A stretch of DNA of 61,929 nucleotides from NCBI GenBank assembly GCA_902812875.1, contig CADDZV010000007.1, forward strand, positions 1 to 61,929. The letters are read 5' to 3'. A program made the translations under genes and the position numbers. This document shows, piece by piece, positions 30,016 through 33,508 of this stretch. Numbering within the stretch: the stretch's first letter is position 1; the number at the start of each line of letters is the position of its first letter. The DNA is from Clostridiales bacterium. Lineage in GTDB: Bacteria; Bacillota; Sulfobacillia; CADDZV01. A model generated the notes under the pieces. It had not been told where the DNA came from. It ran no database searches and was given only the letters and a program-made list of their open reading frames with translations.

Positions 30016-31572
30016 TCAGCGGGCGTACTCGACCGCACGGGTTTCCCGAATCACGGTCACTTTGATCTGGCCCGGGTATTGCAGCTCCTGCTCGATCTTC
30101 TTGACGATGTCACGCGAAAGTCGCACCGCCCCGAGGTCATCGATCTTTTCCGGTTTGACCATGATCCGTACCTCGCGACCGGCCTGGATGGCGTAAGACT
30201 TCTCAACTCCCTCGAACGACTCCGCAATTTCTTCCAGACGTTGTAGCCGCTGGAGGTAGGTTTCCAGACTCTCCCGCCTGGCGCCTGGCCGCGAGGCTGA
30301 GATGGCATCGGCAGCCGTCACCAGGAAGGCCTCAATAGTCACCGGTTCGAACTCGCCGTGATGGGCGGCGAACGAATCGATGACCGCCTTGGGTTCGCGG
30401 TACTTGCGGCAAATTTCCATGCCGATTGCCACGTGCGTCCCTTCGACTTCGTGGGTCATGGCCTTGCCGATGTCGTGCAACAGGCCGGCCCGACGGGCAA
30501 GCTGGGCATCCGCCCCCACTTCGTCCGCCATAAGGCCCGCCAAAAGGGCGACCTCCACCGAATGCTTGAGGATGTTCTGGCCGTAGCTCGTGCGATACTT
30601 GAGCCTTCCGAGCAGCTTGATCAGCTCCGGATGCAGACCGTGCACGCCGGCTTCCATCGCGGCTTGCTCGCCAGCTTCCTTGATCCGCTGGTCGACCTCC
30701 TTCTGGGCTTTTTCCACCATTTCCTCGATACGTGCGGGGTGGATGCGTCCGTCCGCCACCAAACGCTCCAGGGCAATCCTGGCCACTTCCCGCCGGATCG
30801 GGTCGAAGCCCGAGATTACCACCGCCTCGGGCGTATCGTCGATGATCAAATCCACCCCGGTGAGTGTTTCGATGGTGCGGATGTTGCGGCCTTCGCGGCC
30901 GATGATGCGTCCTTTCATTTCCTCGTTGGGGAGGTTTACCACCGATACCGTAACCTCGGCCGTGTGGTCGGCCGCCGTGCGTTGGATAGCTTGGACGATA
31001 ATTTCCCGCGCCTGTTTGTCGGCGTCTTCCCGGGCGCGTGCGAGGGTATCGCGGACGAGCTCGCTCGCCTCCTGGGAAACCTCTTCGCGCACGGTCTTCA
31101 AAAGAATGTCCCGCGCCTGTTCGGAGGTCAAACCAGCCACGCGCTCGAGTTCGGCACGGCGTTTCTTCTCGAGCTCATCCACCGCCTGTTCCCGTTCCTG
31201 CAGGTCCTTTTCGCGGCGGGCAAGGGCGTCCTCTTTTTTCTCAAGGGCTTCGGCCCGCCTGTCCAAAGACTCCTCGCGTTGTGCCAAGCGTCTTTCCTGC
31301 CTCTGCAACTCGATGCGCTGGGCCCGCAGCTCGTCCTCCATTTCTTTCCTGGAGCGCATGATTTCTTCCTTGGCCGACAAAGAGGCTTCGCGCTTTATGG
31401 CTTCGGCGTCTTTCATGGCGGCGTCCCTGATGCTACGGGCCTGCTCTTCGGCACTGGCCACCTGGGCTTCGGCCACGTTCTTCCGCAGGAAATAACCTGC
31501 GGCCGCACCCGCGAGCAAAGACGCTACCGCCACGGCAATCACGATTAGTACAGTGAGGTTTATTCGCTTCAC
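30016..31572 (-). CDS. rny: Ribonuclease Y
   Basis: A 518-aa membrane-anchored endoribonuclease that starts mRNA decay. A single N-terminal membrane segment ([23 protein letters not shown]) is followed by a long charged coiled coil (about 35-200), a KH domain (about 205-265, [22 protein letters not shown]) and an HD domain ([15 protein letters not shown], with HD ligands). The start is GTG at 31570-31572, with an AAAGGGGG run immediately adjacent, closer than normal. Order rny-ymdB downstream of recA-recX is standard. Confidence 0.96.
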
Positions 31573-31627
31573 CCCCCTTTCACCGACGTATAAACGTTTA
31601 CTTGCGTGCTACCGTCCAGTCTTGAAA

Positions 31628-31658
31628 GTCAAAAGCCAGGTCCGAAAGTGGACCTGGC
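31628..31658 (-). terminator. Intrinsic terminator of the recA-recX transcript
   Basis: GCCAGGTCC (31635-31643) pairs with GGACCTGGC (31650-31658); on the minus strand the stem is followed by TTTTGACTTT. It would end transcripts coming from recX and the structured gap before rny. Confidence 0.75.
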
Positions 31659-31684
31659 CCTTGAATACCTGGTCGATCACGGGC

Positions 31685-31817
31685 ATTTCTCACGCTGCTG
31701 TGACGCTTGTGCCGGCAAAGCCGGCAGGCTATGGCAATCCCTCTACCGGGCTTCTAGCCCCGGAAAGACCTCAATCATTGGCACCTCTAAGGAAAGTCAT
31801 TGCCTGCTGTGAGAAAT
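31685..31817 (-). ncRNA. Putative structured RNA or small inverted-repeat element
   Basis: ATTTCTCAC (31685-31693) and GTGAGAAAT (31809-31817) are perfect 9-bp inverted repeats. Nested inside are GGCAAT (31733-31738) with ATTGCC (31799-31804), a CCGGGCTTCTAGCCCCGG hairpin (31746-31763) and a GCCGGC-AAA-GCCGGC hairpin (31711-31725). On the minus strand the recX terminator follows 27 bp downstream, which suits a processed RNA. A MITE-like remnant is the main alternative; no target-site duplication is evident. Confidence 0.35.
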
Positions 31818-31831
31818 ATCATCGCAACAAT

Positions 31832-31885
31832 CGGCTCGCATGGTTCGCCACCTGCTGCTGGAGCCTTCGAAGAACCGCCGAGCCG
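31832..31885 (-). other. Second stem-loop in the recX-rny gap
   Basis: CGGCTCG (31832-31838) pairs with CGAGCCG (31879-31885), and inside it GGTTC (31842-31846) pairs with GAACC (31872-31876). Together with the adjacent element it gives about 200 bases of foldable sequence. Confidence 0.4.
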
Positions 31886-31967
31886 AACTTGCTTTCCGAA
31901 CCAGAGCATTCTATGGGCCAGCGTACACAGGCACCAATTCTGATTCTAGACAGCTAGCGCCAGCTGG

Positions 31968-32477
31968 TCAAGAAATACTTTTGTGGGGCCCGTTCTGCTC
32001 GCAGTCGGCGCTCGTGGGAAGCAATGTGTCGGTAGCCCTGCGCACCACCGCCGCGGTAAAACCACGGCGCTCCAGAAAACCCGCCAGCCGCCGGCGAGCG
32101 GCTGCACGTGCGTCGCACCGCACCGGCACCTTTTCCAGGCGCCTGGAAGCCACACTCAACGCCTGTTGAAATTCCGCTTCCTCGTCTAGGTCAGCGAGCA
32201 CCTCGTCGCAGATCTCGCGGCTCACGCCGCGAAGCTGCAGTTCCCGCATGAGCCGCCGCCGTCCCATGGGACGAAAAAGCTGCCGCTGCTCTACCCACCA
32301 AGCCGCGAACGCGCGATCATCGAGAAGCCCGCGGGCCGAAAAGTAACGAATGGTATCATCGATGGCACCTGGAGAAAAACCTTTCCGCTGCAGGCGGTCA
32401 GTCAGTTCCGATATCGCCCGTGGGCGGTTGAGCAAGAGTTTCAATGCATATTGGTGTGCGGCTTCCGCCTCGTCCAA
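31968..32477 (-). CDS. recX: Regulatory protein RecX
   Basis: A 169-aa RecX made of three-helix repeats; motifs ALKLLLNRPRAISELTDRLQRKGF and the following FSARGLLDDRAFAAWWVEQR are typical. RecX limits RecA filament activity. It starts at TTG 32475-32477, two bases after the recA stop, with a GGTGG-type site. Standard recA-recX coupling. Confidence 0.93.
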   Translation of the reverse strand: MDEAEAAHQYALKLLLNRPRAISELTDRLQRKGFSPGAIDDTIRYFSARGLLDDRAFAAWWVEQRQLFRPMGRRRLMRELQLRGVSREICDEVLADLDEEAEFQQALSVASRRLEKVPVRCDARAAARRRLAGFLERRGFTAAVVRRATDTLLPTSADCEQNGPHKSIS

Positions 32478-32479
32478 CG

Positions 32480-33508
32480 TTAAGCTTCACCACCGTCGTC
32501 GCTTGCTACCGGCACCTTGACCGCACCGAGCTTGAGGGCTTCGCGTATCTTGTTTTCGATTTCGGTAGCCACGGCCGGGTTTTGTTTGAGATATTCCCTG
32601 GCATTTTCCCGGCCCTGCCCGAGCTTTTGGTCGCCATACACGTACCAGGATCCCGTCTTCTGGATGAAGCCGCTGTCGGTTCCCACGTCCAGAAGGCATC
32701 CAGCCCGCGAGATTCCTTCGCCATAAAGAATGTCAAACTCGGCTTGGCGGAAAGGCGGTGACATCTTGTTTTTGACCACTTTTACCCGGGTGCGACTGCC
32801 GATGACATCATTTCCCTGCTTGATAGCTTCCACGCGGCGGACTTCCAGTCGCACGGAAGCATAAAACTTGAGGGCGAGTCCGCCAGGCGTGGTTTCCGGA
32901 TTGCCAAACATGACCCCCACCTTCTGGCGGATCTGGTTTATAAAAATGGCACACGTTTTGGACTTGCTGATGGCACCCGTGAGTTTGCGCAAGGCCTGCG
33001 ACATCAATCTGGCCTGCAGGCCCACATGAGCATCGCCCATTTCGCCTTCGATTTCTGCCCTCGGCACCAGGGCAGCAACCGAGTCGACTACCACCACGTC
33101 AATGGCTCCGCTACGTACCAGAGCCTCCGTGATTTCCAGTGCCTGTTCGCCGGTATCCGGTTGGGAGATCAAAAGGTTGTCGACATCGACCCCCACCCTT
33201 TTTGCGTACGCGGGATCCAGGGCATGCTCCGCGTCGATAAAGGCGGCAATGCCGCCAGCTTTTTGGGCTTCGGCGATGATGTGGAGTGCCACCGTGGTTT
33301 TTCCCGACGCTTCCGGGCCGTAGATTTCCACCACCCGCCCGCGCGGCACTCCCCCGACTCCGAGTGCGATGTCGAGGGACAACGCACCAGTGGGAATCAC
33401 CGCCACCGCGTCATGGGCAGCGGACTCTCCGAGCCGCATAATCGATCCTTTGCCAAACTGTTTTTCGATTTGGTTAAGGGCGATTTCCAAAGCCCGCTCA
33501 CGTTCCAA
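32480..33508 (-). CDS. recA: Recombinase RecA
   Basis: A 342-aa recombinase. The Walker [31 protein letters not shown], the L2 region ([22 protein letters not shown]) and the C-domain are intact. It starts at TTG 33506-33508 with GGAGG eight bases upstream. A good sigma-A-type promoter lies in the 64-bp gap behind thpR. I find no Firmicute LexA box (CGAAC..GTTCG) in that gap. Confidence 0.98.

Follow-up and report, generated by a model that had tools for sequence, protein, structure and literature searches.

What is encoded in the long gap between recX and rny, the gene of RNase Y? In the DNA stretch analyzed here, 61,929 nt of a Clostridiales bacterium of the class Sulfobacillia (contig CADDZV010000007.1; below termed the window), recA, recX, the gap, rny and ymdB follow each other on the minus strand, and the gap, which a sequence-only reading had estimated at nearly 400 bases, measures 395 nt when the GTG at 31572 is taken as the start of rny. 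As RNase Y, a main mRNA-degrading enzyme, initiates mRNA decay in many Bacillota, its level matters for all transcripts. The sequence-only reading had described nested inverted repeats and a second stem-loop in the gap, and had proposed either a processed or independent RNA next to an endonuclease gene, or a decayed inverted-repeat element. A protein-coding gene was rejected, as none of the open reading frames in the gap had a match in Pfam. On computational grounds, namely a promoter-like site, a terminator sequence, helices that exclude each other, recurrence in relatives, cognate pairing and linkage to rny, we propose, with a probability of about 0.78, that the gap encodes a leader RNA of rny that is read on the minus strand and would function as a transcription attenuator.

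A predicted promoter, a structured RNA and a predicted terminator precede rny

The features of the locus are compiled in Table 1. The predicted promoter matches the consensus at 10 of 12 positions, its −35 element overlaps the recX stop codon, and it is the sole promoter-like site on both strands of the region 31400–32600, for which shuffled sequences let expect 0.3 sites. Transcription of the leader is predicted to start near 31936. About 270 nt of structured RNA lie on the minus strand between this promoter and a strong, likewise predicted intrinsic terminator, a minus-strand hairpin followed by T residues that had already been noticed and that was now called by a scan written for this analysis together with folding. 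The U run of the terminator is short in the window, which counts against an attenuator. Only some 50 nt separate the end of the terminator from the rny Shine–Dalgarno sequence in the window, and the scan of 31400–32600 detected no promoter-like site in the stretch between terminator and rny.

Table 1. Coordinates of the leader and of the flanking genes in the window
Feature	Position	Strand	Description
recX	31968..32477	-	Pfam RecX_HTH1-3; upstream neighbor, outside the element
Predicted leader promoter	31943..31971	-	TTGACC (31966-31971), 17 nt, TAGAAT (31943-31948); sigma-70-type
Antiterminator strand GUGUACGCUGGCCC	31915..31928	-	near the leader 5′ end; 12 predicted pairs with the terminator 5′ arm GGGCCAGGUCCAC
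P1 5′ strand, GAAUGC-CUGGUUCGG	31896..31911	-	closing helix below the antiterminator; in the minimum-energy structure
Inner stem-loop A	31829..31889	-	perfect 8-bp base
Inner branched domain B	31680..31822	-	9-bp perfect ends
P1 3′ strand CGACCAGGUAUUC	31663..31675	-	immediately 5′ of the terminator; in the minimum-energy structure
Intrinsic terminator	31629..31664	-	15-bp hairpin with 6-nt loop (CAAGGGCCAGGUCC-ACUUUC-GGACCUGGCUUUUG), short U run
rny Shine–Dalgarno sequence GGGGGGUGA	31569..31577	-	
rny (RNase Y)	30016..31572	-	Pfam RNase_Y_N 2e-58, KH, HD; start uncertain; gene 3′ of the leader

The repeats that had drawn attention to the gap could all be located. The nested inverted repeats, which constitute domain B, have perfect 9-bp ends (31685–31693/31809–31817), the GGCAAT/ATTGCC helix lies within an imperfect 17-nt pair (31724–31740/31791–31807), and the second two-part stem-loop, which is stem-loop A, is closed by a perfect 8-bp helix (31831–31838/31879–31886). 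The interval 31665–31967, which had been taken as one structured unit, did not hold up as such, as neither strand folded better than its dinucleotide shuffles (z −0.89 and −0.69). The border at 31665 excludes the terminator, the key pairing partner of the 5′ end. With borders set by promoter and terminator (minus strand, 31936–31622), the fold reached a z of −3.79, and none of 100 shuffles was as good. The leader up to the terminator loop had a z of −2.64 and the terminator alone a z of −7.0, and stem-loop A and domain B, each folded alone on the minus strand, had a modest z of −2.3, with 3% and 2% of the shuffles, respectively, being as good. P1 alone was not better than shuffles in the window (p 0.4).

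When the RNA ends at the terminator loop, positions 31928–31915 are predicted to pair with the terminator 5′ arm with a probability of 0.90–1.00, and this pairing closes the whole structure, with P1 beneath it and then stem-loop A and domain B. When the 3′ arm is included, the full RNA is predicted to be more stable in the terminator state (−131.0 kcal/mol) than in the antiterminator state (−123.6 kcal/mol), a difference of about 7 kcal/mol. The antiterminator and terminator helices share the terminator 5′ arm and are thus predicted to exclude each other, and folds that are mutually exclusive, as modeled here, typify transcription attenuators.

Many lineages have the same layout before rny

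Close relatives of the window genome are lacking, and the nearest ones belong to the same class; the pairing in the window therefore rests on one sequence and on the pattern seen across families. We collected the regions upstream of rny from about 95 class genomes and, in addition, from wider Bacillota. Many relatives have a promoter, often with 10–12 of 12 consensus matches at the corresponding site, an RNA of about 80–360 nt, and a terminator that often contains CCGAG..CTCGG, followed by rny. Of 94 class loci, 67 have a strong terminator ahead of rny, compared to 1–4 in shuffled sequence, and 33 of these 67 have a promoter with at least 10 of 12 matches upstream of the terminator; in the other 27 loci, the scan used found no strong terminator. 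In the wider Bacillota, 32 of 79 rny loci have a strong terminator (shuffles 0–2), 29 with a promoter, and in a further set, which consisted of the 30 rny loci closest to the Desulforamulus locus, 26 had the layout. The leader thus appears to recur in many lineages, including the culturable Desulforamulus and Thermincola. From family to family, the inner domain is very different in both length and sequence, and the sequence of domain B is not conserved. Several relatives share a conserved AUAGAU box. The CAUAGAA of the window lies between two helices, and its homology to this box is unproven.

These comparisons also bear on the proposed decayed MITE or other inverted-repeat element. The nested inverted repeats are in line with such an origin, and several dispersed copies would be required, but the genome contains a single copy, the DNA of the element has no match in 60 relatives, and the same layout occurs at the same place in many other families. 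We therefore rejected this explanation, to which we assign practically no weight.

The leader 5′ end and its terminator arm are cognate

Covariance across relatives, which had been suggested as a check, was analyzed by a swap test in place of a covariance model, because a MAFFT alignment of the joined leader ends put P1 out of register. In this test, each leader 5′ end from 21 families was paired with the terminator 5′ arm of every family, row and column effects were removed, and own pairs were compared with foreign ones; the leaders were those in which our own scan had found both promoter and terminator, and the families are not fully independent. Own 5′ ends and arms paired better than foreign ones, with p = 0.0003 for the 21 families, which is the limit of the permutation. 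The length of the 5′ window (30, 45 or 60 nt) did not alter this value, nor did omission of the window genome. Reversed arms, the other arm of the terminator, and shuffled 5′ ends had no or marginal effects. The window genome had −8.0 kcal, the best rank in its row. In the leaders, the first 45 nt held the terminator arm to 0.69, and to 0.39 when the 5′ ends were shuffled.

P1 also paired better with its own partner, in 21 of 21 families of the class and likewise in 25 Peptococcaceae-like leaders. One of the three shuffled P1 controls was significant as well (p 0.001) and thus not perfectly null, so that the claim for P1 in the class is less firm than that for the antiterminator. The 5′ strand of the Peptococcaceae-like group directly adjoins the terminator, and its overlap with the terminator arm amounts to no more than about two bases.

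The RNA is associated with rny and not with recX

Among rny loci without an adjacent recX, 12 of 23 retain the layout. Conversely, recX was found in 10 of 15 examined class genomes without rny, and in none of these 10 does such an RNA follow recX. As the terminator is moreover close to the Shine–Dalgarno sequence of rny without a promoter-like site in between, the RNA appears to belong to rny and not to recX.

This has consequences for the notion of an independent RNA. The part of the earlier proposal that saw a structured RNA beside the endonuclease gene could be retained, and the RNA can now be tied to rny. A fully independent RNA, such as a trans-acting small RNA that has its own promoter and terminator and is merely located before rny, would agree with the complete promoter–RNA–terminator unit of about 300 nt, and a terminated leader would be a small RNA in any case. 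However, the element accompanies rny rather than recX, little sequence and no promoter-like site separate the terminator from rny, and a pairing of the own 5′ end with the own terminator arm would be needless for such an RNA, which is why we regard a free small RNA as improbable and less likely than a leader. The terminated product of the leader could nevertheless also act as a small RNA.

The same data argue against an ordinary operon end, in which the hairpin would only terminate recA–recX transcription and rny would be transcribed from a promoter after the hairpin. We found no other terminator in the stretch between recX and the leader, so that the hairpin must also end read-through from recA–recX, but the promoter-like site precedes the terminator and does not follow it, the antiterminator pairing is cognate, and the layout is retained where recX is not upstream. 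This alternative thus appears very improbable.

Comparison with known leaders and a possible regulator

An Rfam scan, another suggested check, revealed no family at the gathering threshold, and matches to the 4227 Rfam families remained at chance level for the window and the loci of 29 relatives, with gathering as well as relaxed thresholds. The rny leader is thus an RNA without a name in Rfam, and we judge it to be unnamed. No report of an attenuation of rny was found in a search that covered mainly the open literature. 6S RNA was rejected as the identity of the gap RNA, as the above-threshold RF00013 match of this genome (74.9 bits) lies on another contig (G000:C2:75632-75833).

T-box and terminator-type riboswitch leaders have a comparable architecture, with a promoter, a structured leader, mutually exclusive antiterminator and terminator, and then the gene. 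The rny leader differs from them in that it has no Rfam match, that no conserved aptamer or T-box core was found, and that the downstream gene encodes a ribonuclease. A ligand-binding riboswitch would be the same attenuator, with the inner domain sensing a small molecule and not RNase Y; it is a rival only with respect to the regulator, and part of its weight is shared with the attenuator reading. While the architecture and the long structured inner domain would suit a transcription-termination riboswitch, the inner domain changes too much from one family to the next, in length as in sequence, for a typical conserved aptamer, and neither the window nor the 29 relatives' loci had an Rfam match. 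We therefore consider a riboswitch unlikely.

The rny attenuator that we propose would work as follows. While the leader leaves the polymerase, its 5′ end would pair with the terminator 5′ arm as this emerges, stacked on P1, which would hold both inner hairpin domains. If this antiterminator lasts until the polymerase has passed, rny would be transcribed, whereas loss or displacement of the 5′ strand would let the terminator form and end transcription before rny. We infer from the sequence that the leader attenuates in this way in the cell. As to the signal, RNase Y itself is our favored regulator, because RNase Y of Bacillus subtilis cleaves its own 5′ UTR. Free RNase Y would cut the leader and thereby weaken the antiterminator, which would favor termination of its own gene. 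This assignment of the signal is tentative. A difficulty of this model is that a membrane enzyme would have to cleave fast, while transcription is under way. The B. subtilis enzyme represses its own synthesis through two regions of its mRNA that it cleaves, the 164-nt 5′ UTR and the first 100 nt of the reading frame (Korobeinikova et al., 2023; PMC10303841). RNase Y favors G/A within RNA that is AU-rich and weakly structured (PMC11780869), and it prefers to cut after G (PMC4608709).

The B. subtilis system thus resembles ours in that a long rny 5′ UTR is involved in rny control and is cut by RNase Y, but there the control is exerted at mRNA decay, and the main text of that study does not contain the words terminator, attenuation or hairpin (PMC10303841). 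The leader described here, in contrast, is predicted to contain an intrinsic terminator and a covarying antiterminator. The 5′ UTR of Escherichia coli rne is a further structured leader of a decay-initiating endonuclease gene that is used for feedback, according to the part of the B. subtilis study that refers to it (PMC10303841). The enzyme and the RNA are unrelated to RNase Y and the rny leader. Furthermore, the rne 5′ UTR acts via decay of the full mRNA and is not known to use a terminator. That many lineages have a leader with a covarying antiterminator/terminator suggests that, beside the published autoregulation by mRNA decay, rny is also controlled at the level of transcription, and with Desulforamulus and Thermincola, there are culturable relatives in which the rny leader is a defined and testable RNA.

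A non-canonical start codon of rny and genomes without RNase Y

The listed GTG start codon of rny (31570–31572) falls inside the Shine–Dalgarno sequence, and rny therefore probably starts at a non-canonical AUA (31561–31563), 8 nt after the Shine–Dalgarno core. By the same rule, AUC, AUU, AUA or CUG is found at the start position in 26 of 94 class loci, including the window, with a control on ymdB and recX having been hampered by poor N-terminal anchors. These rny starts recall the AUU starts that occur in infC and pcnB. One could go further and assume an RNA family, widespread in Bacillota, whose cleavage lets RNase Y gauge how much of its activity is free; the cut leader would release the terminator and stop transcription of rny, and many lineages would add a weak AUA, AUU, AUC or CUG start as a second brake; taken as a whole, this scheme is rather doubtful.

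A part of the class appears to have lost RNase Y. Three genomes (G005, G031 and G048) and the families f6, f46 and f47 have no rny match above the thresholds, and three of them have none at an E-value of 0.001. The genomes without an rny match still carry recA, which in several of them is followed by recX and a ymdB-like gene.
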